Source: Gammaproteobacteria bacterium
GTDB taxonomy: Bacteria; Pseudomonadota; Gammaproteobacteria; GRL18
Direction: 5' to 3'
DNA length: 64,000 nt
NCBI GenBank assembly: GCA_016744375.1
Contig: JADGEM010000004.1
Coordinates: 46,930-110,929 of the forward strand
This document shows positions 12,731 to 57,651 of the stretch, one piece after another. Position 1 is the stretch's first letter, and the number at the start of each line of letters is the position of its first letter. Below the pieces are notes generated by a model. That model had not been told where the DNA came from, made no database searches, and saw only the letters and a program-made list of their open reading frames with translations. Made by a program: the position numbers and the translations under genes.

Positions 12731-13540
12731 CTACCCTAATAAGCCCAACACACTTTGTGGCAAAGCATTTGCCTGAGACAGAACGGAAATACCAGCCTGT
12801 TGAAGAATCTGGAATTTGGTCAGTTTTGCTGTTTCCTGTGCAAAGTCTGCATCTTCAATACGGCTACGAGCAGCACTCAGGTTCTCTGCTGCATTTTCAC
12901 CATTACGAATGACTGATTCGAAACGATTCTGAACAGCACCCAAAGTTGCCCGTTGAGTATTAATTGACGCCAGAGCAGTATCAACTGTCGCAATCATTGC
13001 AGAAGCCGCAGCTACCGTAGCAACACCACCTGTTAATGTAGCATCAACGGAAGTTGTTGTGACAGTAATCACATTATTACCACCCGCATCTGGTCCTACC
13101 TGGAAAGCAAATGCCTGAGCACTGGCCCCAATTACTGCAACACCATTAAATTTAGTTTGTTGAACACGAATAATCTCTTCTTTAAGCTGTGTCACCTCTG
13201 TATTCAGAGCGGCCCGGTCAGTCGAGCTATTAGTTGCATTCGCTGATTGAACCGCTAACTCACGAATACGCTGCATGTTTATTGACATTTCATCATAAGC
13301 ACCCTCAGCAGTTTGTGCTAATGAAATCGCATCCGCTGCATTGCGAGTACCCTGATTATAACCACGGATCTGAGAAGTAAAACGTGACGCAATCGCTATA
13401 CCGGCCGCATCGTCTTTAGCACTATTAATGCGCTTACCTGATGATAATCTTTCCAGAGCTGTAGCCAAACCTGAATTTGTGCGATTTAAACTACTTTGTG
13501 CATTTAATGATGGAACATTAGAGTTAATTACCTGTGCCAT
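12731..13540 (-). CDS. fliC: Flagellin (269 aa; start corrected to [15 protein letters not shown])
   Basis: Canonical N-terminus [50 protein letters not shown] and C-terminus [53 protein letters not shown] before 13540. Confidence 0.97.
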
Positions 13541-13673
13541 GATGACATCTCCTGTGATATGCCCCACTAATCCCGTATTGTTTATATAAAACAATGCTTA
13601 AAGCAACGAATTGTGGAGAAATTTACTATGCGGATATACTCTCAAATGGAATATTCACCGCCTCTTGAACACA

Positions 13674-13792: not shown

Positions 13793-16700
13793 ATGCTTAA
13801 TGAAACAATAAGTTTGGCATATTTTATGCTATATTTATTAAGAGAGAAATCCGTCAAAAAACAGGTACTAGAAGTGATTAAACTAAGTAACGACACCCAG
13901 TTAGGCACATTAATTGAAAATAATTTTGGTGATAAGTACCTTTTTTCAGTGAATCGAAAGAATTTTGAACAACTTGATTATCAGACCCAATTTAACAAAG
14001 AATTTAATAAAACATTTGAGCAGAAAGATACACTCTACATTATAACTGGCACAGATTCAGGAATGATGGTTCAACAACTATTAAAAACGCCACCTGAAAA
14101 AGGTAGTGCTTATGTATTTATTGATTTCCCTGAAGTTATTGAATTGACAAAACATCTGTATAACCTGTCTAAACACAAAAGAATTATCGTAAGCACTGAA
14201 GACCAATGGGAGCAAGAAGCAAAAAAAATAGGGCTTGAAATTTATTTTACCATTAACAAAGTAGAACGAATAAAATCTTTTGCGGCACAATATTCTTATA
14301 TCAATGAATACATTTTTTTAAGGCAAACTATTGAGGACACAATAAACCATCTCATCTGGCAATATCAATCACAACTAGGCAGCAAGATATTTATCCAGAA
14401 ACAACTTGAAAATTTAGCAGAAAATCACACCCCAGCCATTATTCTGGAAAATTACTTTGAGGGGAAAGCAGCACTCATACTCGCAGGAGGCCCTTCTCTT
14501 GATCATTATATTGAATGGATTGAAGAAAACCAGGATCACTATGTGGTGATCGCAGTCACACGAATTGCCAGGCGTTTATTAGAAACCAAAATCAAACCTG
14601 ACATTTTTGTTTCAGTTGATCCTTTTCCTTCTAATTTTAATGCCAGTAAAGAAGTCTTTAATTATGAGAAAGAATGTCTGTTAGTCCATCAATACCATTT
14701 ATCCCCCATGCTATTGGGAAACTGGTTGGGAATCAATTTATATTTAGGTGACCTATTTCCCTGGAAGACCAATCTCAATCAAAGTAATCTAACAGGTATT
14801 GGGCCAACAGTAACTAATACAGCAATATTACTAGCCATTAAAATGGGCATCAGAGAGCAAATTCTTTTTGGCGTTGATTTGTGTTATAGCCCCGATGGAT
14901 ATACCCATGCATTAGGTAGTCAAGAATATGAAGCGGGACCTGATCTTAATAACATTGGTCAAACTGTTATTACCAATAAAGGTGAAAAAGCAGAAACAAA
15001 TTCTGCCTATTATGAAGCAAAAACAACCATTGAAAAATTAGCTATACTTGCAAAAGAATCTGGAGGCAGTATATACAATCCTTCACCAAACTCAGCTAAA
15101 ATAAATTATGTAAAATATATTTCAATTGATGAGATAAAAATAAATAAAGAACACATTAGTATTTCAAAATTCCTGAAAAAACAATTATCACAACATAAAG
15201 AACACTTTTATTTAAAAATAAAACATTATCAAAATATTATCAAAGAGCTTAATGCTGCACAATTTAAAGTCAATAAAATTGAAGAATTAGCAAAAAAAGG
15301 ATTGGAGTATAATCGAAATTTTTTTGCAGATGATAATCCTGAAGCAAATTTTAAATTCAAGCTTAAAATGGATAAGCTGGAAAAAGAATTAAATAACAAA
15401 AATTTGATTAATTTTTCAGAGTTAGCAAAAAAATTTGGTATCAATGAGTTTTTATATTTTCTGAATACTGATACTGATCGAGAATGGAGCAATGAAGAAA
15501 TAAAAAAATCTGGAGATATTTATTATAAAGCATTCAAAACTGGAGCAATAGAATTAGGCAGGCAGATATTTACAGCAGTGAATCGAACTGAAGCAAGACT
15601 TTTAGAATGTAACAATCTCAATATTAACAATAATTTAATAAAAAGGCATCTCTGTTCTTTTAACCAATCTTATTTACTTGAGAGACAAATTTACAATCAA
15701 GTAAATAGACTAGATAGAATAAATAGAAAAATAGAAAAAACCTCCTTTGCTCAAAAACAACAACAATTAGTAAAGTTAGATTACTTAAAACAAACCAAAA
15801 ATGACACTATCAAAAAATGTAAAGACTTATACACTACATTTAAAGCAAACGAAGAAACTATAGGAATAAATAATAAAGAAAGATTACAGTCTATCGCTTT
15901 TTATTTAATTATGTTACAAAATGAAGAAAACTATCAAACAAGAAGAATACAGATCCTACAGAACAAAAATCCGGAACTTTTTTTTATTTCTCATACAATA
16001 AACTTTCTTGGCGCATCACCACTTGATTACATTAACAGACAAAACAATATCAATGAAAAATTTTTGGCTACCAAAAGATTAAACAAAAAATCAATCATAA
16101 TAAACCAAATAAAAAATCTTACAGAAAATCACACTCCTGTCACTGTATTAAAAAAATTATTTTCAAAGGAATCAGCTCTTATTCTTATAAATGAAGAATC
16201 CATTAATAACCATATTGAGTGGCTTGAAAAAAATCAAAATAATTTTGTTGTAATCACTAATAGCAGAATATCAAAATACTTATTAAAGACAGCAATAAAG
16301 CCCGATTTCATAATTGCCAAAAGCTCAAATATAAATGACTTCAATGTGCACAAAGATACTTATCACTATGAAAAAAACAGTATCTTGGTCCATCAAAATA
16401 ATCTTTCACAAATATTTCTAGGTAATTGGTTTGGGGTCAATCTCTTTTCTGGCTCATTATTTCCGTGGGAATCAGAAATTGATATTGAAAATTTATCCAG
16501 TACAGTTTTAGATATTGATCCTGCATCAGAGGACATAGTCAACATGGCTGTTTCTTTTGCACATCAAACAGGTATTATCCGACAAATAATCTTTACTGAT
16601 TCATATCATAGTTCATTTACAAAAATTTCTAAGGATGTAGATAATTCAGGTAGTACATTATTAACCCCCGTTAAAAACAAAAACAAACCTGACATAGTCA

Positions 16701-18091
16701 CTCAAATAAAGATAGATGACATTCAAATCCCAGAAACATCTATTGACATCCAGGAATTAATTAAGATTAAACAACTCTCCACAACTTTTTCCTCCAAAAA
16801 TATAGTTCATTATAAAAATATATTAAAAGAATTGATTTATATACAGGATATACTTATAAAAATGAACACTATTGTCAGTAATGCAACTGAAACAATACAA
16901 GCACACTTTTCTAATACCTTACAACCCAATGATGAAATTAATCAACTGGAGAAGAAACTTAACCAAAGTGAATATAAACATATTTCAAAATTATTGATAC
17001 TTTTTTCAGGTACTCCTTTTTTATACTTTCTACAACAAAATGAATCTGAAGAACATAGGCTAGAGACTTATTCAGAAATCAGATTATTTCTATCAACTCT
17101 TACTAATCTTAGAAAACAAATTTTTACAGCAATTAATCGAACTGAAATTAGATTACTCGAACAAGATCAACTCATTTTATCAGATGATGTGATCAATAGA
17201 CACATAGATTCATATGATAAAACTTACTTAATGGATACCTTAAATTCAGCACAAAAGAAAACTATTCTTGCTCAACAGAATGAAAAAATTAAGGCTTATT
17301 ATCACCAGGATAAACTCATTGGAAAAACAAAAATAGACAGACAAAATGCCATGTCTTTTATATTACTAACCGAACAATATGGACGAGACACTACAACCAG
17401 AAGAATTTATATTTTTGAACAGAAAAACAAAAGTCTATTTAAGTATTCAGAAAATAGTGCCATATTGGGTGTAAAGAATAAAGAGATTAAAGAGATGCAT
17501 AAAGCAAGCTTTGAAAATCTTATATCTGCAAATGATAAAGTTAAGTTAGAAGGACTCGAAATAAAACTTTACAACCTATTTAATCTTAAAGAAACAAAAT
17601 CTATTAAACAAATTATTAGGGGCATTAATTTATTTGGAAGTATTCAACCAGAAAGTGAAGCATTATTACATTTAGCCAATGGTTATTATTGTGAATTATC
17701 AAACAACATAGATCAGGCAATTATAGAATATGGGGCTGCAGATCACCCCAAAACGATTGAAAGTGCACTAAAAAGGCTTGCCGCCATTACATTGGGGCAA
17801 GGTAACCTGCAATATGCTCACGAGGTACTAGTGCTGCTTTCTGATATCTCCCCAACATACCTTCCTCAACTTGCAGAACTGTACATCATTAGTAAAAATT
17901 ATAAAAACGCATTAGAAATATATACTCAATATTTAGAATATAACATGTCAGATGTATTCATTTTATTAAAAGTCGCTAATTTATATGAATCACAGGACAT
18001 TACTGATGGAGCACAATTTATATACAAGCATATTCTTGAAATAGAACCCGAAAACTCTATTGCATTAAAAGCAACAAGAGAGATACATTAG
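13793..18091 (+). CDS. Maf-type motility-associated (flagellin) glycosyltransferase, duplicated architecture with TPR-like C-terminus
   Basis: 1432 aa; KAALILAGGPSLDHYIEWI...KPDIFVSVDPFPSN...TGIGPTVTNTAILLA...FGVDLCYSPDGYTHA is the DUF115/Maf core; divergent from fliC. Confidence 0.85.
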   Translation: MLNETISLAYFMLYLLREKSVKKQVLEVIKLSNDTQLGTLIENNFGDKYLFSVNRKNFEQLDYQTQFNKEFNKTFEQKDTLYIITGTDSGMMVQQLLKTPPEKGSAYVFIDFPEVIELTKHLYNLSKHKRIIVSTEDQWEQEAKKIGLEIYFTINKVERIKSFAAQYSYINEYIFLRQTIEDTINHLIWQYQSQLGSKIFIQKQLENLAENHTPAIILENYFEGKAALILAGGPSLDHYIEWIEENQDHYVVIAVTRIARRLLETKIKPDIFVSVDPFPSNFNASKEVFNYEKECLLVHQYHLSPMLLGNWLGINLYLGDLFPWKTNLNQSNLTGIGPTVTNTAILLAIKMGIREQILFGVDLCYSPDGYTHALGSQEYEAGPDLNNIGQTVITNKGEKAETNSAYYEAKTTIEKLAILAKESGGSIYNPSPNSAKINYVKYISIDEIKINKEHISISKFLKKQLSQHKEHFYLKIKHYQNIIKELNAAQFKVNKIEELAKKGLEYNRNFFADDNPEANFKFKLKMDKLEKELNNKNLINFSELAKKFGINEFLYFLNTDTDREWSNEEIKKSGDIYYKAFKTGAIELGRQIFTAVNRTEARLLECNNLNINNNLIKRHLCSFNQSYLLERQIYNQVNRLDRINRKIEKTSFAQKQQQLVKLDYLKQTKNDTIKKCKDLYTTFKANEETIGINNKERLQSIAFYLIMLQNEENYQTRRIQILQNKNPELFFISHTINFLGASPLDYINRQNNINEKFLATKRLNKKSIIINQIKNLTENHTPVTVLKKLFSKESALILINEESINNHIEWLEKNQNNFVVITNSRISKYLLKTAIKPDFIIAKSSNINDFNVHKDTYHYEKNSILVHQNNLSQIFLGNWFGVNLFSGSLFPWESEIDIENLSSTVLDIDPASEDIVNMAVSFAHQTGIIRQIIFTDSYHSSFTKISKDVDNSGSTLLTPVKNKNKPDIVTQIKIDDIQIPETSIDIQELIKIKQLSTTFSSKNIVHYKNILKELIYIQDILIKMNTIVSNATETIQAHFSNTLQPNDEINQLEKKLNQSEYKHISKLLILFSGTPFLYFLQQNESEEHRLETYSEIRLFLSTLTNLRKQIFTAINRTEIRLLEQDQLILSDDVINRHIDSYDKTYLMDTLNSAQKKTILAQQNEKIKAYYHQDKLIGKTKIDRQNAMSFILLTEQYGRDTTTRRIYIFEQKNKSLFKYSENSAILGVKNKEIKEMHKASFENLISANDKVKLEGLEIKLYNLFNLKETKSIKQIIRGINLFGSIQPESEALLHLANGYYCELSNNIDQAIIEYGAADHPKTIESALKRLAAITLGQGNLQYAHEVLVLLSDISPTYLPQLAELYIISKNYKNALEIYTQYLEYNMSDVFILLKVANLYESQDITDGAQFIYKHILEIEPENSIALKATREIH

Positions 18092-42644: not shown

Positions 42645-43739
42645 TTAAACATTATTAATAAAGTCATCCGTCATTTTTTTTGCCTGATCATCAGTTAATT
42701 GTTTTAATGGATGCTTACAATAATAGGCAGACGGTCCCTCCAAAACACCTGAAATACCACGTTCCAGGGCAAGCTTAATGCAACGGATCGCATCTGCTGA
42801 AACACCGGCTGAATTGGGAGAGTCTTCAACGGACAGTCTGAGTTCAATGTTCATATCAACGTCACCGAATAACTTACCTTCCATACGCAAAAAACAGACT
42901 TTGTTATCATTTTGCCAAGATACGTAGTCACTCGGGCCAACATGAATGTTTTGCTTATCCAGAGGTTCACTGGCAACCGATTGAACAGCTTCAGTTTTGG
43001 AGACTTTTTTGGATGCCAGGCGAGTTCTGTCCAGCATATTCAGGAAATCAGTGTTACCTCCTGTGTTTAGCTGGTAGGTTTTTTCTACTCCAACCCCTCG
43101 TTTGTTAAATAAATCCATCAGAGTTCGGTGTACAATGGTGGCACCAACCTGTGCCTTGATATCATCACCAATAATAGGTAGTCCTTTGGCTTCAAATCGG
43201 GCAATCCATTCTGGATCACTAGCAATAAATACGGGAATGTTATTTATAAAAGCAATATTTGCTTCCAATGCACATTCAACATAAAAGCGTGTTGCCTGTT
43301 CTGAGCCCACTGGCAGGTAATTAACCAATATTTCTGCACCTGAGCTAACAAGCAAATTAACGACTTCCTCTTTAGTCATTTCATTTTGCTCAGATAAAAC
43401 AAATGTTTCATCCTGATCATATTGCGACATATGCTCAGAAACACCATCTAAAATGCTGCCCATTTTCACAGTGACATCATAAGATGGGATTTGATCACAA
43501 AAAATGCTTGTACAATTTGGCTTTGCAAAAATCGCTTCGCTGATATCTTTACCAACTTTACGTTTATCTATGTCAAATGCAGCGACAACTTTTATATCTG
43601 ATGGCAGATAACCGCCAATATTCCAGTGAATCAGGCCATTAGCATCATTTTCATCTTTGTTTTGATAATAATGAATGCCTTGTATCAATGAACTAGCACA
43701 GTTTCCCATACCAATAATGGCTACTTTAATTTTTTCCAT
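42645..43739 (-). CDS. Inositol-3-phosphate synthase (myo-inositol-1-phosphate synthase)
   Basis: KVAIIGMGNCASSLIQGIHYY...NYLPVGSEQATRFYVECALEANIAFINNIPVFIAS...GDDIKAQVGATIVHRTLMDLF...LNTGGNTDFLNM. Confidence 0.93.
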   Translation of the reverse strand: MEKIKVAIIGMGNCASSLIQGIHYYQNKDENDANGLIHWNIGGYLPSDIKVVAAFDIDKRKVGKDISEAIFAKPNCTSIFCDQIPSYDVTVKMGSILDGVSEHMSQYDQDETFVLSEQNEMTKEEVVNLLVSSGAEILVNYLPVGSEQATRFYVECALEANIAFINNIPVFIASDPEWIARFEAKGLPIIGDDIKAQVGATIVHRTLMDLFNKRGVGVEKTYQLNTGGNTDFLNMLDRTRLASKKVSKTEAVQSVASEPLDKQNIHVGPSDYVSWQNDNKVCFLRMEGKLFGDVDMNIELRLSVEDSPNSAGVSADAIRCIKLALERGISGVLEGPSAYYCKHPLKQLTDDQAKKMTDDFINNV

Positions 43740-43801
43740 GCAGCTAATAGTACCTTTATTTTAAATATTTTATATAATAGTCGTTTTAAATGGATAAACT
43801 C

Positions 43802-44524
43802 TCAACATAATGAACCATTATTTATTAACTTTGTTGCTTTTTGTAACATTTCAGGGGTATCAACATCAATCCAGAGCGCTTCTTTAAGTGGATACACTTT
43901 AGCTAAACCTGATTGTATCAATTGACTCATACCGCCTGATAATGATGTATTACCTTGGGCAATCGATTTCTCAAGAGCAGTGAATAACTTGGGTGATGAA
44001 TAAAAAATCCCCGTATCAAAAGCATTATATTTTTCTATATGTTTACCAATTTGAATAATTTTATCATTAAGATAGTGAACACGAGTCACATCATCCAAGT
44101 CAATTAATGGGTTATCTTTAATTTTAGTATCAATGGCTAATATCGTTTCACTTTTATTTTTATCAATAGACAATAATTCGCGTAACATATTAGCATGAAA
44201 AATGTGATCTGACATAAGCAATACAAAAGAGCTGTTGATTGACTTCTTTGCAGCTAAAACAGATAGACCATTCCCCTGTTTCCATTCAGGATTAAAAATT
44301 ATTTCTATGAAGACTCCTTCATTCTTAGAAATAGTCCTCAGCTCAGCTTCTATTTTTACTCTTTCGTAGCCAATGACTACAGTAAATTTCTTTATTCCAG
44401 CCTCCACCACATTATGGATAACATGTGCGATTAAAGGTATATTATTGATTGTCACCAGAGGCTTAGGTACCTCCATTTCTGATAATCGGCTGCCATTTCC
44501 GGCCGCTATAATTAAGCAATTCAT
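43802..44524 (-). CDS. Nucleotidyltransferase, possibly CTP:inositol-1-phosphate cytidylyltransferase-like
   Basis: LIIAAGNGSRLSEMEVPKPLVTINNIPLIAHVI, NPEWKQGNGLSVLAAK, LLMSDHIFHANML; next to inositol-phosphate synthase. Confidence 0.7.
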   Translation of the reverse strand: MNCLIIAAGNGSRLSEMEVPKPLVTINNIPLIAHVIHNVVEAGIKKFTVVIGYERVKIEAELRTISKNEGVFIEIIFNPEWKQGNGLSVLAAKKSINSSFVLLMSDHIFHANMLRELLSIDKNKSETILAIDTKIKDNPLIDLDDVTRVHYLNDKIIQIGKHIEKYNAFDTGIFYSSPKLFTALEKSIAQGNTSLSGGMSQLIQSGLAKVYPLKEALWIDVDTPEMLQKATKLINNGSLC

Positions 44525-44596
44525 AAATACGAAACATCTTTAAAATTTAAAATATTGATAATACTTTCTTTAGCATAAACCTATTCAAAGCAAATA

Positions 44597-46129
44597 TTAT
44601 GCCATTTTCTCTATTGATTGCCCAATTCGGAGCCAGGCCCTTCCATCCATATAGTCATATGCTAATTTAGAAATTTTCTTACGTTCATCCTGGTAGCCAT
44701 CTTCATTTTTTAATAAAAAGCGATCTATCCAGTTAATGAGTTCATCTTGAGTATAGGCTTTGGGACCTGGCGTCATCTCAAAATAATCAAATTGTATCAT
44801 TCTATGCTGTTTCAAATATTCATCAATATCATATGGAAAAAATAAGATAGGCTTTAAAGCATGTAGAAAATCCATATAAATTGATGAATAATCTGTAATT
44901 AACAAATCTGCAAATTTCAGTAAAGGGTAACCATCCCTATCATTTTTATAAGAAACAATTGGACCTCGATTATTTTCAGCCTCAGATTCAATTGCTTCCA
45001 CTACGATGCTGGTATGCCCTTTTATAACCAGAAGTAATTGTTCCCGATTTAAAAATTCTGTTAATTTGCCATAATCAATGATGGAAGTATAATCAAAATC
45101 AACTTGCATATCTCTGAATGTTGGAGCATAGACAATAATTTTTTTGCCACTTTCCTTCTCTTGTTTCAATATCTCGAGAATAGCACTATCTGTAAATATT
45201 TTTTGCCCTAAAATATCCTCATAAAAAAGATCATTTTTAGGGTAGCCTGAACAAATAATATTCTTTAATGGTGTATTATAAGCAGGTGATGAAACTTCTT
45301 TAGCATAAAATGATGATGTTGACACTAAGAGATCATTATAAAAAATCCTTTCATTTAATCTTTTTGATTCTATGGTCGTCAATGCATTTAAAAACTCCTT
45401 TGGAATCATCATTTTTTCAGTGTATTTCAAACCAACACCATGAGACATATGAATTGTTTTTACTTTCAAGTGCCTTAACCAAGGATATTTTCTTTGCCAG
45501 GTCATATTATCAAAGTAAAAAAAATGTGTTCTAAATAATAATAATTTTGTTATAGTTTCTGAAAACAATAATACAGGGATTTCTTCCTTCTTTAACTCAT
45601 CATAAAGCTCATTATCATCAACGACCCAATATACATTCCCGGATAATTTTTTACGCATTCTTAAAAAATAATATTTGTTATTGCCAATAAATTTTCCACC
45701 ATGCTCCCCAAAAAAAAGATGTATTTTATTGGTGAATATTTTTGCAGACAAATCAGAAAAAAAAGTCAATAATTTTCCAACCATTCTTTCTTTCAGTGAT
45801 TCTGTTAATATTTCTTTTAATAAATAACTGGGTGCAAACGCAACAATATGATGATGTAAATTATTTTTATTTAATTGAACTATTATCTCATTTTGATAGC
45901 TTGAAGCAACAATAATCAGATCATACTCATTATTGCTTTTTGTAGACATAAAACTGTCAAAATCAAACAGCACTTTTCCTGCTACTCTGCCTTTTGTATA
46001 GGTATCAATAAAACCAAGAACAGTCACATCTAAACGACACTTTAATAACCATGCATAAAGTGCTAAACCAGCTGATCCAGCGCCATAAATATATACTCGT
46101 GAGTTTTCTGATATTTCGGGTAAAATCAT
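44597..46129 (-). CDS. CDP-glycerol glycerophosphotransferase (TagF/TagB)-like transferase with N-terminal Rossmann-like domain
   Basis: N-term RVYIYGAGSAGLALYAWLLK; C-term IIVYAPTFRD...VIKGHTS...LLKFADLLITDYSSIYMDFL. Confidence 0.85.
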   Translation of the reverse strand: MILPEISENSRVYIYGAGSAGLALYAWLLKCRLDVTVLGFIDTYTKGRVAGKVLFDFDSFMSTKSNNEYDLIIVASSYQNEIIVQLNKNNLHHHIVAFAPSYLLKEILTESLKERMVGKLLTFFSDLSAKIFTNKIHLFFGEHGGKFIGNNKYYFLRMRKKLSGNVYWVVDDNELYDELKKEEIPVLLFSETITKLLLFRTHFFYFDNMTWQRKYPWLRHLKVKTIHMSHGVGLKYTEKMMIPKEFLNALTTIESKRLNERIFYNDLLVSTSSFYAKEVSSPAYNTPLKNIICSGYPKNDLFYEDILGQKIFTDSAILEILKQEKESGKKIIVYAPTFRDMQVDFDYTSIIDYGKLTEFLNREQLLLVIKGHTSIVVEAIESEAENNRGPIVSYKNDRDGYPLLKFADLLITDYSSIYMDFLHALKPILFFPYDIDEYLKQHRMIQFDYFEMTPGPKAYTQDELINWIDRFLLKNEDGYQDERKKISKLAYDYMDGRAWLRIGQSIEKMA

Positions 46130-48273: not shown

Positions 48274-49083
48274 TTAATCTATTTTTTTAACAAGAGAGGT
48301 AAGAATTTTCTGGTAACTGGTTATTTTCGCTAATTCATTCACCGTAAATTTAATCTGTGCCAATTTTTCAAGTTCCATAATTAATAATAATTGATGCAAA
48401 GAATCCCAATTGGCAGTAACGCCCAGTTCAGCATGTTCTATCACTTCTTTATGAGTCAGGTCTGGAAAGACGGTCTGAAAAGCCTTCAATATTATTTCTT
48501 CAGCAATTCGACTTGAACCCTTTACCTGAACGGGAAATTCATCACTGTTCTTTGAAGTGGGTTTTGATATAGCCTCTGAGAAGGCTTGAGTCTGACTGAT
48601 TTGGGAAGAAGAAGGATAAGCTTCTAAAAACTCAAATAATCCGTGTTCAGGATGCATTAGAAAAGCAACCCTACGACCATCAAAGGCATCATCTTCACGC
48701 TGCCCTACTATTTTGACAGCACCGTTCTTTTGGGCAGTTTCTACTGCATCATCAAGATCATTGACCAGAAAGCAGAGGTGATAGGCCCCTCCCCCTTTTT
48801 TTACATGCTCTGAGATTGGAGAGTTTTTTCTCACACCCAAAATTTCAATCGTCATCCCCTGAGAGGTTCTTACAAAGGCATAATCAACATTTTGACTCTC
48901 ATTAACCCCAGGACCACGAAGCAGCTCACAACCTTCAATCCCCAGATAATCATGTAAAACATGATTCAGATCCACAGTTGTCACTGCAATATGATCGATG
49001 GATTTAACACCGCATTTTTTCCAGAATGAGCCTTCAGCTTGTAATAAAGAACCTTCAGCCTGGAGAGAGCTATTATTAATCAT
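48274..49083 (-). CDS. VOC/glyoxalase-like domain fused to a C-terminal acyl-carrier-protein-like domain
   Basis: VOC: KSIDHIAVTTVDLNHVLHDYLGIEG...GGGAYHLCFLVNDLDDAVETA; ACP-like C-terminus with WDSLHQLLLIMELE (DSL phosphopantetheine motif). Confidence 0.8.
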   Translation of the reverse strand: MINNSSLQAEGSLLQAEGSFWKKCGVKSIDHIAVTTVDLNHVLHDYLGIEGCELLRGPGVNESQNVDYAFVRTSQGMTIEILGVRKNSPISEHVKKGGGAYHLCFLVNDLDDAVETAQKNGAVKIVGQREDDAFDGRRVAFLMHPEHGLFEFLEAYPSSSQISQTQAFSEAISKPTSKNSDEFPVQVKGSSRIAEEIILKAFQTVFPDLTHKEVIEHAELGVTANWDSLHQLLLIMELEKLAQIKFTVNELAKITSYQKILTSLVKKID

Positions 49084-51322
49084 TGTCTACTAAATCCTGA
49101 TTATTTTTTAGAGTAATCCATCCTGGTATAGGAATACTTTTATCAATTATGTTCATTTCATAGCAGTACTCTTCACGCTGTTGAAACCCCAGTTTAGAAT
49201 AAAGATCCCGCACCGGTGTATTTCGTTCAGTGGGTATAATTTCACCTCTGATTATTGATAGTCCTCTTTCTTTTGCGTAGTGATACAGCCATGCCAGAGC
49301 AGCTCTCTCAATATCACGTCCCAGTACTCGACATGACAATAAGAATGTATCAATTATTATTGATGCAGAAGACTCAATAGTAAACATTAAGACACCAATA
49401 ATTTCATCACTTCCAAGGCGATCAGTTAAACGTATTGCATAGCAAAATCCTGTTTTATTAAACAATTCAAATTGTGCTTTCTTATAACGTCTGCTTGTTG
49501 TGTTAAACTGACTGGTTTTATTAATTAACTGCAAAACGCGCTGTTGATTCAAATCACTCAATAATTCAAAAGATAGACTCATATCCAGTTTATCTAAAAA
49601 ATCAGTTCTGGAATCATCACTCAGATGCACTTTATTAATTTTTGCCCGAATTTTATACTGCTGCGCTCTTTTAGTATCTTCGTCACTGATTCCTATATCG
49701 GCCAATTCCGGTAATCTTTTAATTATTTCCGGCCATTCACTGATTTCTTCCGGTAATTCAGGAACAAAGACTTCAGGCAGTCGGTGCCTGATCGCCTCCC
49801 GTTCAACAGGGTTGTCATCAATCATACAAAATGAAGATAATGGCAGGCCAAGCTCTTCAGATAGTTCAATCAGGTTATCTGATTTAGGGTTCCAGTTTAT
49901 ACGCCAGGCAGTTAAATCATCCAGAGATAAAAGCATTCCAGGATGTCTCTTAAAGACCTCTAACGCTGTTTGCTCATTATTTTTGCTGCAAAGAGCTAAT
50001 AAAAGGCCTCTTTGTCGGTAGTTGAGCATAATTGCCTGTATATTCTGAAAAACATTAGCAGGATAATCACCATCAACCGCAATACCTTCCATACCATCAT
50101 CACCAATAACACCAGACCAAAGTGTATCATCCAGATCAAGGACAATCACTCGGGCATTTTGAGCTTCAATTGCCATCATTAAAGCAATTATTTTTTCGCT
50201 CAGATAGTCATTCAATATCGATGAAAATGGTGCTCGTGCCAGGTACCAGTATTTACCCGGATGGGCAGACAAACGTCCTGTATCCTTAATCAACCCATCC
50301 ATATCAAGGATATGGCTATCATGTAACTCCCCACAAAGTGTTTCCAGTTCTTGACGCATTTTATTTAATGCAAGGGCAATTTTTTTTCTTTCATCATTAG
50401 TTGGATCGGAGCTTGTTATCCAGTGACTGACACTGGCTGCATTGGCAATAATAAAAACACCTGAAACTTTTGACCGGAAATGCCTGATAAAATTGAGATA
50501 TTCTTGCCATCGGCTTATCAACTCATCTAGAATCTGACAAGAAAGAATTGAATTAAGAGGTAAAAAATCTTCAATACGTTCAAGAAAAATAACATAACCA
50601 TTGATTGCTGAATTATTTTTCATTTCAGCAGCATATGAGGTATAAATAGGGCTGGATGGATCATTAGCCGCTATTTGATACTGTCCATAAGGAATATCTG
50701 CTATCTGAAGGTCAATAGAGTAATGTTTAGCACTGCTCTGAAACGCATTTTTAATAAAATCAAGGTTAGAGCTTCCCATCAGCATGCAACAAGATTGAAA
50801 ACGAATAGAGGGTGACTTATTTTCTTGTACAACGTCTTCTGAATTTAAAACAGTAATCACAACCTCTTCAATAACATCACCTTTTTTACGTTGTTCAATA
50901 GCGGTTTCAACAAATCCAAAACGTTTGTGCATTTCTAAAACCGGCTGATTAAATCGAAAGGTTTCACAATAGAGCTTCTGACAATTCAATTCATTAAAGG
51001 CATATTGAATTGCCTCTTGTTCCAGTAATTGCCAGTTCTGAAACGCATTTTTAGCATAATTAAAATCATTAGAAAGATAAAACCCCCAATGGCATGTATG
51101 ATTGTCTTTATCAATATCAAAAAAATTTACAACGCCCGCAGCAATACCATCTCGAACAAACATCAAACATTGTTGAGAATTATTACTGTTTAAACTTTGC
51201 CACCAGACCAGGTGCTCATCTGCAGTGATTAAATGATCCGTAAACATGTTCTTGCGAACATCTGGAGAATTTCTCCAGCTTCGTATTATTTCAAGTTCGT
51301 TTTTGTGTATCTTTCTGAGCAT
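49076..51322 (-). CDS. PseH-like N-acetyltransferase domain fused to FkbH-like HAD-GNAT protein
   Basis: N-term LEIIRSWRNSPDVRKNMFTDHLITADEHLVWW (PseH-like GNAT); centre VIVLDLDDTLWSGVIGDDG...LCSKNNEQTALEVFKRHPGMLLSLDDL (FkbH); C-terminal GNAT. Confidence 0.88.
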   Translation of the reverse strand: MLRKIHKNELEIIRSWRNSPDVRKNMFTDHLITADEHLVWWQSLNSNNSQQCLMFVRDGIAAGVVNFFDIDKDNHTCHWGFYLSNDFNYAKNAFQNWQLLEQEAIQYAFNELNCQKLYCETFRFNQPVLEMHKRFGFVETAIEQRKKGDVIEEVVITVLNSEDVVQENKSPSIRFQSCCMLMGSSNLDFIKNAFQSSAKHYSIDLQIADIPYGQYQIAANDPSSPIYTSYAAEMKNNSAINGYVIFLERIEDFLPLNSILSCQILDELISRWQEYLNFIRHFRSKVSGVFIIANAASVSHWITSSDPTNDERKKIALALNKMRQELETLCGELHDSHILDMDGLIKDTGRLSAHPGKYWYLARAPFSSILNDYLSEKIIALMMAIEAQNARVIVLDLDDTLWSGVIGDDGMEGIAVDGDYPANVFQNIQAIMLNYRQRGLLLALCSKNNEQTALEVFKRHPGMLLSLDDLTAWRINWNPKSDNLIELSEELGLPLSSFCMIDDNPVEREAIRHRLPEVFVPELPEEISEWPEIIKRLPELADIGISDEDTKRAQQYKIRAKINKVHLSDDSRTDFLDKLDMSLSFELLSDLNQQRVLQLINKTSQFNTTSRRYKKAQFELFNKTGFCYAIRLTDRLGSDEIIGVLMFTIESSASIIIDTFLLSCRVLGRDIERAALAWLYHYAKERGLSIIRGEIIPTERNTPVRDLYSKLGFQQREEYCYEMNIIDKSIPIPGWITLKNNQDLVDND

Positions 51323-51345: not shown

Positions 51346-52080
51346 CTAAGTCTTTAATTTTTTTTGTTCAATTGCTTTATTGATGTCATAAATGTAGGGA
51401 TTTTTATCCAGCATTGAAACCAATTCATCATATTTAAATCTTGTTTTACAGGAAAATTGTTTATAAATTTCCTGAATTACCCGATAGTCCGCCAGTTCAT
51501 CAAGTGTAATTCGATATTTAGATGCATCCTTAATACTTTTTAACTGACCTATTTTAAATTTATTCGGATTCGATTTATAAATATACGGAGTCACATGTTC
51601 TTTTTCATAGTCTTGTGTTGCATTTGAGGATGCTTCTTCAAGTAGGGCAAAGTTAAACACTTCAACATCCAGTCCTCTTGGAAAACCCGTGCTAGAATTT
51701 GCAATAACATAGTCATAGCCATACTCTTCATAATATGATACCGCTAATTGGATCACATCCGAATCAATTAAAGGGCAATCGCTGGTGCAGCGAACAATAA
51801 TGTCATCATTCTTTAGCTGATACGATAAGGCAGCCTGATAATATCGGGATAAAACATTATCCATATCACCTTCGAAGAAATTTATATCTAGTTGCTGGCA
51901 AAGCTCAACAATCGGCTTTTGAGTACCATCATTTGTTGTCGCAATAATGATATTTTTTTTGAATGAGGAGAGTCGCTCCAACATGACTTCCAAAACGGTT
52001 TTACCACAAAGCGGCAGCATAATTTTTCCAGGCAACCTTGTACTTGTCATTCTTGCCTGAATAATGATAAAGACTGACAT
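51346..52080 (-). CDS. SpsF/PseF-like cytidylyltransferase
   Basis: IIIQARMTSTRLPGKIMLPLCGKTVLEVMLERL...VRCTSDCPLIDSDVI. Confidence 0.85.
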   Translation of the reverse strand: MSVFIIIQARMTSTRLPGKIMLPLCGKTVLEVMLERLSSFKKNIIIATTNDGTQKPIVELCQQLDINFFEGDMDNVLSRYYQAALSYQLKNDDIIVRCTSDCPLIDSDVIQLAVSYYEEYGYDYVIANSSTGFPRGLDVEVFNFALLEEASSNATQDYEKEHVTPYIYKSNPNKFKIGQLKSIKDASKYRITLDELADYRVIQEIYKQFSCKTRFKYDELVSMLDKNPYIYDINKAIEQKKLKT

Positions 52081-52084
52081 CGTT

Positions 52085-53272
52085 CTAGAGGAACCGTGGG
52101 TTCAAGTTGCTCAATAAAATATCACTTATTTTATGAGAAATAAAATCAACTTGTTCTTCCGTTAAATCCGTAAATAAAGGTAATGTGAGTGCTTCTTGAT
52201 AATAGGATTCACTTTCAGGGAAATCACCTTGTCTGAAACCCCGTTCTTGGTAAAAAGGTTGTGTATGGATAGGAATATAATGCACATGCACACCGATACC
52301 TGCCTGACGTAATTGTTCAAAGACACTTTTTCTATCGATTTTTAATTGTTTTAAATTTAATCGAATGACATAGAGGTGCCAGGAAGACTGTGCTTCCGGG
52401 TTTTGCCAGGGCATGGTTAGAGGCAATGACTGCAATTGATGATTGTATCTTTCAGCCAATTTTTTTCGTTTACTGATGAATTCATCCAGACACCGTAATT
52501 GTGATAATCCCAATGCAGCCTGGATATCAGTAATACGATAATTGTATCCTAAATCTAACTGCTGATAGTACCAGCCACCGTGAGATTCTTCAGTCATTAA
52601 ACCTGTTTCCCGGGTGATCCCATGTGTACTTAAACGCTTTATTTTATCGGCCAGTTGTGGATTATTTGTCATAATCATTCCACCTTCACCACTGGTGATC
52701 ATTTTAGCCGGATGAAAACTAAAAATAGTCAGCTCCGAATAAGCGCAGGAGCCCACTTTTTGATCGGTGTATTCCGCACCCAGAGCATGAGCAGCATCTT
52801 CAATAATTAAAAAACCATATTTTTTTGATAGTGACTTAAGTGCTTTCATGTCACAAGGCTGACCTGAAAAGTGAACAGGAATAATGACTTTTGGTATACG
52901 ATTATCTTTTTCAGCTTGCTGAAGTTTCAATGTTAATGAATCAATACAAATATTATACGTATCCGGATCAATATCAATAAAATCGACCTCTGCATTGCAG
53001 TATATTGCACAATTAGCAGAAGCAACAAAGGAATTAGGAGAGGTCCAGACAATATCTCCCACTCTGACTTCAAGTGCCAGGCAGGCAAGATGTAATGCCG
53101 CCGTTCCATGACTCACAGCAATAGCAAATTTAGCACCACAATATTTAGCAACAGCCTCTTCAAACTGAGAAATAACTGGCCCCTGAGTAATAAAATCAGA
53201 ACGCAGAACTTCGTTGACTGCTTCGATATCCTGTTCAGAAATTGATTGCTTAGCGTATGGAATCATACTCAT
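52085..53272 (-). CDS. pseC: UDP-4-amino-4,6-dideoxy-N-acetyl-beta-L-altrosamine transaminase
   Basis: MIPYAKQSISEQDIEAVNEVLRSDFITQGPVISQFEEAVAKYCGAKFAIAVSHGTAALHLA...FSFHPAKMITSGEGGM. Confidence 0.94.
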   Translation of the reverse strand: MSMIPYAKQSISEQDIEAVNEVLRSDFITQGPVISQFEEAVAKYCGAKFAIAVSHGTAALHLACLALEVRVGDIVWTSPNSFVASANCAIYCNAEVDFIDIDPDTYNICIDSLTLKLQQAEKDNRIPKVIIPVHFSGQPCDMKALKSLSKKYGFLIIEDAAHALGAEYTDQKVGSCAYSELTIFSFHPAKMITSGEGGMIMTNNPQLADKIKRLSTHGITRETGLMTEESHGGWYYQQLDLGYNYRITDIQAALGLSQLRCLDEFISKRKKLAERYNHQLQSLPLTMPWQNPEAQSSWHLYVIRLNLKQLKIDRKSVFEQLRQAGIGVHVHYIPIHTQPFYQERGFRQGDFPESESYYQEALTLPLFTDLTEEQVDFISHKISDILLSNLNPRFL

Positions 53273-53288
53273 ATATAAACGTTAGCCA

Positions 53289-54305
<1,017 letters not shown>

Positions 54306-54398: not shown

Positions 54399-55553
54399 AT
54401 GCTAAAAAAAATTAATCATTTTATTTTATATAAAAATGAACGTTATTTTTCATCTTTCCCCAGTATTGTTTTATTAGACAAAGCATCATCAAACAGCAAG
54501 CAATTACTTTTAATGTTTCGCCGTGCAAGGGACAGTCGATGGTTGTTGGATGGTGATGATGAAGAATCCATCCTTATAAAACATCAGGTTGATCATGTTG
54601 ATAGCCGATCTCAACTGACAAAAATGTTTTTTGATCTGAATCTGAACCCACTTTCTGACGCTGAAGCTTTACCCATTAATCCAGAAGCTGCAGATCAGGA
54701 CGCCTGTTTATTAGTTTTATCTAATAAGCAAATCTTACTGTCTTCTTTTTCCTGGTATCCCATTCATTCCAGATTGCGTAAACCACTACAAAAGAGAGGT
54801 GTTTTTCTTTATGGACAGCCGGAAACGACCGGATGTTTTTATCTCTTATGGGGTGGTTTTACCCGACTTTCTCAGGATCTTGGAAAAACCTGGACAAATC
54901 ACAATTATTTACCTGATTTACCAGGTACTAACGAAACTATACCAGATAAACAGATTGCTCACAGTGGTTCTGTTCGGGGGCAGGCTATTGAAGTTGGTCA
55001 TAAAATTTTATTGCCGGTATATACCCGATTAGCAGGTGATAATGTTGACAGCTCTCATTTATATTGTTCAAACGATATGGGAAAATCCTGGTCATATTAC
55101 TCAATGATTGCAAAAGATCATCAACAAAAACTCAATTTAAATGAGCCATCCTTACTCCATCTTGATGGTGAACGGATTATGGCTTTTATGCGTAATACCA
55201 GTGGCAATGATCATTTAGTCACAGCTGTCTCTAATGATCTTGGCCGTACCTGGGAAGACTGGCAAGAAAAAAAAATCACGGGTCATCCAACTCATCCATT
55301 AAGATTATCAGATGGCAGAATTTTTCTCTGCTATGGTTACCGTCATGAACCTTATGGTATCCGAGCTTGTTTAATGGACGCTTCTGCCGAGAATTTTATC
55401 GGTGATGAAATCATTATCCGTGATGATGGTTTGTGTGGTGATGTCGGTTATCCCTGGGCCGTTGAGATGCCTGATGGAAAAGTTCTAGTGGTTTATTATT
55501 TTACGAAAGATGATGGGATTCGCCATATTGCCGGTAGTCTATTATCAATTTAA
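54399..55553 (+). CDS. Sialidase (BNR-repeat)-family protein
   Basis: Three Asp-box motifs SQDLGKTW, SNDMGKSW, SNDLGRTW; MFRRARDSRW near the N-terminus; no obvious signal peptide. Confidence 0.82.
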   Translation: MLKKINHFILYKNERYFSSFPSIVLLDKASSNSKQLLLMFRRARDSRWLLDGDDEESILIKHQVDHVDSRSQLTKMFFDLNLNPLSDAEALPINPEAADQDACLLVLSNKQILLSSFSWYPIHSRLRKPLQKRGVFLYGQPETTGCFYLLWGGFTRLSQDLGKTWTNHNYLPDLPGTNETIPDKQIAHSGSVRGQAIEVGHKILLPVYTRLAGDNVDSSHLYCSNDMGKSWSYYSMIAKDHQQKLNLNEPSLLHLDGERIMAFMRNTSGNDHLVTAVSNDLGRTWEDWQEKKITGHPTHPLRLSDGRIFLCYGYRHEPYGIRACLMDASAENFIGDEIIIRDDGLCGDVGYPWAVEMPDGKVLVVYYFTKDDGIRHIAGSLLSI

Positions 55554-55567
55554 GGCCCCATTATTTT

Positions 55568-56593
55568 TCACTTCACACTGACTTCATGATAAATTGATGA
55601 GGCAATTCGTTGAGCCCCTTTGCCATCAATTAAAGTCTGAGCGGTCTGACTTAATTTCTCAAGCGAGCTGGAACTGAGCATATGTTCCGCCAGTGTAACC
55701 AGTTCAACAGCACTCTTTGGGTTGTTGCGTTGATCTTTACAGTCAACTACCCGGCACCAGCCATATTGACATTGTTCTTTTACAGATAAAAACTGGTTAT
55801 CTGCAACCACAGCAAAGACAGAAGGCACACCACAATACGCAAGCTCAAATACTGTTGAGCCAGCAGCTGAAATGGCAAGTCTTGCCCTGGAAAACAAAAC
55901 GGCCATATTTTTAACATTATGCTGATGTTCAAAACCCATTTTCTGACAAGATTCAGCCACTTTAGCAGTATTTTTACAGCCACTGCCCGTGACCACAACC
56001 ACATCAAGATTAACCAATGATGTATTATTAATTAAATTCAGCACGGGCAGTGTGAGTTCTGTGACATCAGATCCGCCAAACGTAATGACAAGCAACTTTC
56101 GTTCATTATAAAAAGAGGGTTTCAAATAGTGTCTATTCAAATCCTTAAATAAAGATCTCAATAAAATATATTGTGGACCCAGTAATAATTTTGCACTGGG
56201 GGTCGCTTCTTTATAAGGTAAAGAAGACGTACTTTTCACTGGGTTAATCACTAAATCTGCATAGAGCTGACCACGATTGCATTCATCATCCAGAACCACT
56301 AAAAGTGAATGGGTCAGTTTGGACAACTCAAGAAATAACTCCGTTGTATAGTCATAATGATCAATAATGATGACATCATAGTATTGAGCCATTAATGAGA
56401 AATCGTCTTCAGAGCGGATTATCTCAAGTTTGTGTGGCGTAACGGCATTTTCTGAGTGGATACTTATTGCAGCAAACGTGCATTCTATTGAGCAATCAAA
56501 CAAAGCATCAGCCAGGGCTTTCGAACGCATAACATGTCCCAAACCATATTTCCCGCCAGAATCCAGACGAAACAGCGCTCTATAAGAAATCAC
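55568..56593 (-). CDS. pseG: UDP-2,4-diacetamido-2,4,6-trideoxy-beta-L-altropyranose hydrolase
   Basis: YRALFRLDSGGKYGLGHVMRSKALADAL...VITFGGSDVTELT...AISAAGSTVFELAYCGVPSV. Confidence 0.94.
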   Translation of the reverse strand: MISYRALFRLDSGGKYGLGHVMRSKALADALFDCSIECTFAAISIHSENAVTPHKLEIIRSEDDFSLMAQYYDVIIIDHYDYTTELFLELSKLTHSLLVVLDDECNRGQLYADLVINPVKSTSSLPYKEATPSAKLLLGPQYILLRSLFKDLNRHYLKPSFYNERKLLVITFGGSDVTELTLPVLNLINNTSLVNLDVVVVTGSGCKNTAKVAESCQKMGFEHQHNVKNMAVLFSRARLAISAAGSTVFELAYCGVPSVFAVVADNQFLSVKEQCQYGWCRVVDCKDQRNNPKSAVELVTLAEHMLSSSSLEKLSQTAQTLIDGKGAQRIASSIYHEVSVK

Positions 56594-57651
56594 TCTTTTT
56601 CTTCAATATGATCCCAGCAAATAGCAGTACCCGGCTGGAGATCATTCGTGGCTATTTTTCCTAAGAGGGATACATAATACCTGGGAGACAAGCCAAAGCC
56701 AGGTCTAATCACCCGGATATTGTCTTCAGTAAAAACATCACCTTTTGCAATACCCTTGCAGCAATAAATTGAGCGGCGGTATTTTTTTGATTTTTGCTCA
56801 TTCTCTGAACCGCCATATTGAATATGACCCAATGCCGCATTAATTTTTATTGATTCTGACACCAAATCACCCAATTCTTCCGGCTCAAGTGAAAACTCTG
56901 CATCAATCCCCCCGGCCTGTCGGTCAAGAACAAAATGCTTTTCAACCAGACAGGCACCTAGTGCAACAGCAGCAAGTGAAACCGTAATGCCATCAGAGTG
57001 ATCAGAAAGACCAACAGGACAGTGATATGTTTTTTTCATATGAGCAATCGTTGCTAAATTACTGTCTGAAGCATCGGCGGGATAATTACTGGTACATTTG
57101 AGTAATAGAATCTGGTTGTTTCCGGTGTCACGAATTGTGCTAATCAACTCTTCAATTTCAATTTCAGAAGCCATACCGGTTGAGATAATAATGGGCTTAC
57201 CCGTTTGAGCTGTTTTCTTTATCAGCGGCAAATCATTGTTTTCAAATGAAGCAATTTTATAACAAGGGACATCCAGGGTTTCAAGAAAATCAACCGCACT
57301 GGCATCAAACGGGGAACTAAAAGCAATCAGACCTAATGATTTTGCTTTATCAAAAAGTGGTTTATGCCATTCCCACGGGGTTGAGGCCTTAGCATACAGT
57401 CCATAAAGATTTTCACCCTGCCATAAGCTGTTTTCATCATCAACAAGAAAGTCATCATTCTGAAGATTAAGAGTCATTGTCTCAGGCGTATAGGTTTGAA
57501 GCTTAATCGCATGAGCACCCGCAGCAGCAGCTGCTTCAATCATTTTTTCTGCCAGTGCATAATCCTGCTGATGGTTTCCAGAAAGCTCTGCGACAATGAA
57601 GGGGGTACAGCCATCACCAATTTCCGTATCAGCTATTTTTATTATTTTCAT
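56590..57651 (-). CDS. pseI: Pseudaminic acid synthase
   Basis: PFIVAELSGNHQQDYALAEKMIEAAAAAGAHAIKLQTYTPETMTL...GLSDHSDGITVSLAAVALGACLVEKHFVLDR. Confidence 0.96.
   Translation of the reverse strand: MKIIKIADTEIGDGCTPFIVAELSGNHQQDYALAEKMIEAAAAAGAHAIKLQTYTPETMTLNLQNDDFLVDDENSLWQGENLYGLYAKASTPWEWHKPLFDKAKSLGLIAFSSPFDASAVDFLETLDVPCYKIASFENNDLPLIKKTAQTGKPIIISTGMASEIEIEELISTIRDTGNNQILLLKCTSNYPADASDSNLATIAHMKKTYHCPVGLSDHSDGITVSLAAVALGACLVEKHFVLDRQAGGIDAEFSLEPEELGDLVSESIKINAALGHIQYGGSENEQKSKKYRRSIYCCKGIAKGDVFTEDNIRVIRPGFGLSPRYYVSLLGKIATNDLQPGTAICWDHIEEKE

Follow-up and report, generated by a model that had tools for sequence, protein, structure and literature searches.

The stretch of DNA analysed here, a window of 64,000 nucleotides on contig JADGEM010000004.1 of a gammaproteobacterium (genome assembly of 4.29 Mb, 94.7% complete), contains a cluster for the biosynthesis of pseudaminic acid (Pse), and this cluster includes two overlapping fusion genes on the minus strand. 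The first (49076..51322) encodes a protein of 748 amino acids that joins a PseH domain to an FkbH module; the second (48274..49083) encodes a protein of 269 amino acids that joins a VOC domain to a domain resembling an acyl carrier protein (ACP). Both open reading frames (ORFs) are intact and begin with ATG, running from 51322 to 49076 and from 49083 to 48274, and the start of the second overlaps the stop of the first by 8 bp. The original prediction for this locus had described the PseH-FkbH fusion, an overlapping VOC-ACP gene downstream of it and the position of both with pseB, pseC and pseF. Each part of that description was confirmed: models of both families score the fusion above cut-off, the VOC part is found by PF13669 and the ACP part by alignment and AlphaFold2, and pseB and pseC exceed their cut-offs beside an SpsF-like pseF.

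The N-terminal GNAT domain of the 748-residue protein (residues 1-165; 50828..51322, minus) is predicted to act as an N-acyltransferase on the C4 amine of UDP-4-amino-AltNAc. The PseH model TIGR03585 matches residues 2-145 with 120 bits against an equivalog cut-off of 93, and the PseH structure PDB 4xpk matches the domain with E=3e-11. The FkbH module follows with an N-terminal region (residues 178-385; 50168..50791, minus), a HAD-IIIC domain (residues 391-535; 49718..50152, minus) and a C-terminal GNAT region (residues 540-736; 49115..49705, minus). TIGR01686, the FkbH domain model, matches residues 391-715 with 262 bits (cut-off 147) and the HAD-IIIC model TIGR01681 scores 63 bits (cut-off 36), while the N-terminal region is matched weakly by PF21211 (E=0.006) and B. 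fragilis BF1531 (PDB 3slr) aligns with residues 199-536 (E=1e-37). In the alignment columns the HAD and glyceryl-transfer motifs are kept, namely D396 and D398 of DLDDTLW, K480 and D502/D503 of DDNP, all in invariant columns, and Cys664 of SCRV, which is conserved in alignments A1 and A3. Mutated catalytic aspartates would have spoken against the original prediction, and they are intact. By sequence the fusion is thus a member of both the PseH and the FkbH families. We do not call its PseH part an acetyl-CoA-using enzyme, because the loop that holds the pyrophosphate of coenzyme A (CoA) in such enzymes is missing from it.

In the 269-residue protein, PF13669 finds the VOC domain (residues 26-155; 48619..49008, minus) with E=1e-14, and AlphaFold2 models it with a predicted local distance difference test score (pLDDT) above 90. 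According to Foldseek, this part lies nearest to the Ni-bound glyoxalase I of C. acetobutylicum (3hdp, TM-score 0.91) and to methylmalonyl-CoA epimerases, and it has both the fold and the four predicted metal ligands (H31, E80, H102 and E151) of VOC metalloenzymes of that type. The methylmalonyl-CoA epimerase model TIGR03081 scores it at 47 bits, below the equivalog cut-off of 115, and we assign it to the VOC family only. The ACP-like part (residues 190-268; 48280..48516, minus) aligns with 13 stand-alone FkbH-linked ACPs (alignment A2), with the WDS motif placing the predicted phosphopantetheine site at Ser228 of WDSL; AlphaFold2 predicts with confidence a four-helix domain here, with helix II opening at Ser228. 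A phosphopantetheinyl transferase is present.

The remainder of the Pse pathway is complete. On the same strand lie a pseF-like cytidylyltransferase of the SpsF/CTP_transf_3 type, not NeuA-like (51346..52080; PF02348, E=3e-31), pseC (52085..53272; TIGR03588, 551 bits), pseB (53289..54284; TIGR03589, 538 bits), pseG (55568..56593; TIGR03590, 171 bits) and pseI (56590..57651; TIGR03586, 479 bits), the last four all above their equivalog cut-offs. The earlier statement that the window has no separate pseH holds genome-wide: no second PseH above cut-off was found in the whole assembly, where the runner-up reaches 42 bits. In the known pathway, the N-4 acylation by PseH precedes PseG and PseI. Since the fusion carries the only PseH of the genome, it must provide the N-acyl group if Pse is made.

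Recurrence of the two-gene unit

A profile scan based on an alignment of FkbH proteins with the fusion as its first sequence covered one genome per species for 85,462 species, and the best 80 of at least 588 stretches were kept. Among the matches listed were a homologue of the fusion in the sea vibrio Vibrio rotiferianus and, in Lachnospiraceae P6B14, a set of unfused genes. Full-length PseH-FkbH fusions occur in 8 of 297 Vibrionaceae genomes, V. rotiferianus included, and in all eight a VOC-ACP fusion follows directly, a co-occurrence that the original prediction had named beforehand as a check. The gene order there is PseB, PseC, PseF-like, PseG, PseH-FkbH, VOC-ACP, PseI. Taken together with the window, VOC-ACP lies downstream of 9/9 known PseH-FkbH fusions, so that the pairing goes beyond chance. 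Over their full lengths the two window proteins are 36% (PseH-FkbH) and 41% (VOC-ACP) identical to one Vibrionaceae pair. In V. rotiferianus CAIM 577 (locus L056, 12869-13911) pseI is broken into two ORFs and the VOC beside it is without two metal ligands, pointing to a decaying cluster or to a sequencing error.

Gut bacteria of the order Lachnospirales carry the set in split form: FkbH, ACP and PseH are unfused neighbours in seven Pse loci, with VOC optional and PseI adjoining in most of them. In one locus of this order, L285, PseH and VOC form a single protein, with ACP and FkbH alongside. Thus the four activities are linked through three distinct fusions (PseH-FkbH, VOC-ACP and PseH-VOC). 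A contig search with the VOC-ACP protein as sole query gave no match, and a plasmid search gave just one weak VOC match. Sampled Bacteroidales, a search aimed at T. forsythia, contained FkbH-ACP loci and no Pse cluster of this layout.

Both partners accompany FkbH more widely. Among the loci collected at the time of the count, an ACP gene lay on the same strand within 2.5 kb of 84 of 133 FkbH genes and a VOC gene within that distance of 27 of 133, likewise on the same strand, and no VOC match lay more than 5 kb from FkbH in 850 kb of flanking DNA; these figures describe an association and not a probability, given that the VOC profile was partly built from the counted proteins and that the loci are not independent. 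In several phyla, VOC is a gene of its own that adjoins FkbH. All four metal ligands are kept in the window, in the other six Vibrio proteins and in stand-alone VOCs. The ratio of nonsynonymous to synonymous substitution (dN/dS) of the closest Vibrio pair is about 0.08 in all four domains, which shows them to be under selection, and where the ligands are kept in Vibrio, VOC is among the slowest-changing of the four.

Other FkbH loci turned up in the same survey. Archaeal FkbH genes (L078, L088 and L092, from Thorarchaeota, the Asgard group and Nitrosotenuis) lie near an AcpS-like holo-ACP synthase, with VOC in L078 and L088. In Bacteroidota and Ignavibacteria (L069, L077, L095, L133, L174), VOC-FkbH-ACP stands beside FabH-like and short-chain dehydrogenase/reductase (SDR)-like genes and further ACPs, which looks like a different acyl pathway.

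Loss of the CoA-pyrophosphate loop

Gly103 of H. pylori PseH binds the CoA pyrophosphate through its main chain (PMC4363471), and in our alignments standard PseH proteins keep G-x-G at this loop. G-x-G is missing in 16/16 FkbH-linked PseH, comprising the window, the 8 Vibrionaceae and the 7 Lachnospirales proteins. In the gammaproteobacterial proteins its place is taken by a longer segment, which in the window reads SNDFNYAKNAFQNW (residues 84-97; 51032..51073, minus). For this comparison the residue numbers given in PMC4363471 served to check the H. pylori sequence, and that of C. jejuni PseH was taken from the PDB match; the AlphaFold model of the fusion, mostly below pLDDT 55 in the PseH part, does not enter the argument. 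Control gammaproteobacterial genomes with standard PseH gave no match in the FkbH search. The acceptor residues Arg30, His49 and Tyr94 (H. pylori numbering) are kept as R, H and Y in the window and the Vibrio fusions. The simple reading of these alignments would be that the acceptor is unchanged and that CoA has ceased to be the donor. Two further candidate signs of an altered donor, the change of the general acid Tyr138 to His and the loss of Lys133, were dropped after the same features were seen in standard PseH.

A PseH tree was built without the loop columns, and an earlier version that included long-branched GNATs was rebuilt with three of them removed. In the rebuilt tree the Lachnospirales and the gammaproteobacterial FkbH-linked PseH stand apart, and a single clade is rejected by the approximately unbiased (AU) test (p=0.00087). 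The loop was therefore probably lost at least twice, always beside FkbH. As to a single fusion event, the window and Vibrio PseH were grouped (90/93) in the first tree and not in the rebuilt one.

Two more lineages (L236 and L055) have GNATs beside VOC and FkbH that likewise lack G-x-G. Both loci hold a methyltransferase, this GNAT, VOC and FkbH together, with a sugar aminotransferase nearby; L236 additionally has an ACP and L055 a phosphopantetheinyl transferase. From their gene content they are candidates for the same logic applied to another amino sugar.

A proposed carrier-fed N-acylation step and its alternatives

We propose that this cassette constitutes a branch of pseudaminic acid synthesis whose third step would take its N-acyl group from a carrier protein instead of acetyl-CoA, giving Pse5Ac7Gra, and we consider this reading probable. 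The FkbH module would dephosphorylate 1,3-bisphosphoglycerate and pass the glyceryl unit, with Cys664 as relay, to the Ser228-bound phosphopantetheine of VOC-ACP. In a less certain and likely optional second step, the VOC domain, residing on the same chain as its substrate, would epimerise C2 of glyceryl-S-ACP. The PseH domain, fused to FkbH and devoid of the CoA-pyrophosphate loop, would then move the glyceryl group to the C4 amine of UDP-4-amino-4,6-dideoxy-AltNAc. PseG, PseI and PseF would complete CMP-Pse5Ac7Gra, which a Maf-type (MptE-like) protein, the probable flagellin nonulosonate transferase (13793..18091, plus; PF01973 in two stretches, E=4e-55), would attach to the probable glycosylation target, flagellin (12731..13594, minus; PF00669, PF00700). 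The predicted residue mass of Pse5Ac7Gra is 362.13 (316.127 + 46.005).

The original prediction had already suggested a carrier-bound glyceryl for Pse, possibly altered by the VOC domain. Its core, that PseH uses a glyceryl-ACP made by FkbH, now has strong comparative support, because of the two-gene unit in Vibrio, the unfused set in Lachnospirales, the PseH-VOC fusion and the repeated loop loss in FkbH-linked PseH; the alteration by VOC we still only infer. Whether glyceryl would be transferred in place of acetyl or after it had been left undecided. We favour the former, because the genome has only this PseH and because a dimethylglyceryl group replaces one acetyl, by mass, in C. jejuni.

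Several observations weigh against the proposal. The main one comes from Vibrio sp. B9-25K2, whose cluster has the same gene content by description: its quinoxaline derivative was observed at m/z 451, a mass like that of diacetyl-Pse (PMC7371886). The authors of that work sought only known masses, found that the fragmentation differed from that of Moritella and asked for caution (PMC7371886). The ACP part of the window protein has no Pfam (PP-binding) or NCBIfam match, and the V. rotiferianus protein likewise has no Pfam match; given the missing PP-binding match we call the domain ACP-like, and stand-alone ACP partners in L105, L283 and L285 do match PF00550. In L084, a more distant GNAT that lies 1.7 kb away from FkbH retains G-x-G. 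Finally, VOC is missing from several Lachnospirales loci, and its metal ligands are lost in two related vibrios (V. rotiferianus L056 and L225), where dN of the VOC domain is raised.

The role of the VOC domain is a less certain part of our proposal. A C2 epimerase of glyceryl-ACP is our best guess for it, with chances that are about even, because the domain is optional, is of a metal-binding type, stands beside an alpha-hydroxyacyl thioester and resembles glyoxalase I and methylmalonyl-CoA epimerase. Alternatively, VOC may serve the ACP protein for docking or as a structural element, so that D-glyceryl would be moved unchanged; this is compatible with carrier-fed acylation in all but its second step, and we think it a plausible minority reading. 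It accords with the lost ligands and with the fact that VOC is missing from most Lachnospirales loci of the FkbH-ACP-PseH kind. However, the four ligands persist in the window, in six other Vibrio proteins and in stand-alone VOCs, none of the other three domains is better conserved than VOC in proteins that have them, while VOC is relaxed in those that have lost them, and separate VOC genes adjoin FkbH in several phyla.

A second alternative leaves PseH with acetyl-CoA, making Pse5Ac7Ac, while the acyl group from FkbH, ACP and VOC would be added elsewhere, as an O-acylation of Pse or on another sugar of the island, and the fusion would serve co-expression only. The diacetyl-Pse-like mass of a fusion-bearing Vibrio fits this, and the PseH domain does exceed the PseH equivalog cut-off. 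Nevertheless we hold it to be unlikely: the loop that such an enzyme would use is gone from all 16 FkbH-linked PseH, and more than once; L285 fuses PseH to VOC; the module occupies the PseH slot of the operon; and the dimethylglyceryl of C. jejuni takes the place of an acetyl. Rather improbable, too, is that carrier-bound transfer is right and the acyl group is not plain glyceryl, either as VOC or another enzyme makes a different C3 acyl or as FkbH loads another phospho-acyl. Polyketide synthase pathways do remodel FkbH products, converting glyceryl-ACP to methoxymalonyl-ACP, and ketoacyl synthase-like and SDR-like genes stand beside VOC-FkbH-ACP in L069 and L133; yet the two-gene unit of the window comes without a dehydrogenase, ketoacyl synthase or methyltransferase, and known Pse derivatives carry glyceroyl or dimethylglyceryl. 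That the cassette is decayed or unexpressed and has no function in this organism, as the low G+C content of the island, the same-genus genomes without the cassette and the split pseI beside the V. rotiferianus homologue might suggest, is very improbable given that the ORFs are long and unbroken, the catalytic motifs are intact, start and stop codons overlap and the Pse pathway is complete.

Returning to carrier-fed acylation, a broader version can be put forward, tentatively, and we would sooner expect some part of it to fail than the whole to hold. A glycolytic acyl phosphate would be placed onto ACP, a fused VOC epimerase would set the stereochemistry and a CoA-free PseH would use glyceryl obligatorily, so that Pse with D-glyceryl (VOC absent or dead) and with L-glyceryl (VOC active) would both be natural surface sugars, and the same logic of loop-less GNAT, FkbH, ACP and VOC would act on other amino sugars.

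Related systems and genomic setting

The addition of glyceryl to an amine of a diamino-trideoxy sugar has a parallel in Neisseria PglB2, where an alternative allele of a pathway enzyme sets a glyceramido-acetamido-trideoxyhexose. The enzyme there is of another type, with an ATP-grasp domain, the sugar is another one and no ACP takes part. In polyketide systems, an FkbH-type protein, an ACP and 1,3-bisphosphoglycerate work together (PMC7489565); the glyceryl unit enters polyketides there, and would enter a sugar amine here. Aeromonas group II flagellar glycosylation islands place ACP and acyl-chemistry genes beside pseFGHI (PMC7874193), but these are of a fatty-acyl type (luxC, luxE, AMP ligase), and FkbH and VOC are not mentioned in that paper.

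Closest in product is C. jejuni 11168, in which a dimethylglyceric acid derivative of Pse, C16H26N2O9, was found besides Pse, C13H20N2O7 (PMC3068675, PMC4975691, PMC7099621). The difference of C3H6O2 equals dimethylglyceryl minus acetyl, so that one N-acetyl is replaced. The flagellar locus of this strain holds the fkbH gene cj1302 and an 'epimerase' gene, cj1301 (same sources). Compared from the literature only, the likeness lies in a glyceryl-derived group on flagellar Pse; the differences are that the genes are separate, the product is methylated, Cj1295 is needed and the biochemical route is not established in those papers. T. forsythia ATCC 43037 carries Pse5Am7Gra as terminal sugar, with glyceroyl at C7 (PMC6120980), the position that derives from the one acylated by PseH; in this comparison, likewise made from the literature only, the difference is that the candidate gene for the glyceroyl step 'remains elusive' (PMC6120980).

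Closest in genes is the nab cluster of Vibrio sp. B9-25K2, described in 2020, in which the PseH homologue is a domain of a bifunctional protein with a second domain of unknown function, followed next by a gene for a methylmalonyl-CoA-epimerase-like protein, with PseB, PseC, PseG and NeuB also described (PMC7371886). Our locus L231 is laid out alike and includes a two-domain protein of SpsF type. The ACP was not noted and no pathway was proposed in that paper. The fusion and the epimerase-like gene had in this way been reported in a Vibrio without a function.

The G+C content of the island is mostly 0.34-0.41 vs 0.42-0.44 in the flagellar genes, and neither the PseH-FkbH nor the VOC-ACP gene was found in sampled genomes of the same genus and family, which together suggest that the island was acquired. 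Between pseB and pseG, a BNR-repeat sialidase-like gene (54399-55553, plus; PF13088) lies on the opposite strand within this nonulosonate cluster. Elsewhere in the window, consecutive genes at 42645-46129 (minus) encode inositol-3-phosphate synthase-like, nucleotidyltransferase and CDP-glycerol glycerophosphotransferase-like proteins; the nucleotidyltransferase resembles the inositol-1-phosphate cytidylyltransferase domain of NF041135, and the row may serve an inositol-phosphate decoration of a surface glycan. At 40861-42522 (minus), a CTP_transf_3-like N-terminal domain is fused to radical SAM and SPASM domains. The Maf-type protein measures 1432 amino acids, and with its two MptE-like stretches is possibly a tandem Maf.

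The comparative evidence has strengthened the view that the cassette works like FkbH-dependent glyceryl-ACP loading coupled to sugar N-acylation, as a variant of the known pseudaminic acid pathway. For the N-glyceroyl and dimethylglyceryl forms of Pse that are known from surface and flagellar glycans, the literature describes the gene for the acyl step as one that 'remains elusive' and as 'a major challenge'; the cassette offers candidate enzymes for it. If the proposal is true, surface sugars would be linked to glycolysis via an ACP. A PseH without G-x-G beside FkbH would then mean an acyl group other than acetyl, a sequence rule by which nonulosonate structures would become predictable from genomes, and automatic predictions that equate PseH with diacetyl-Pse may mislead for such strains.

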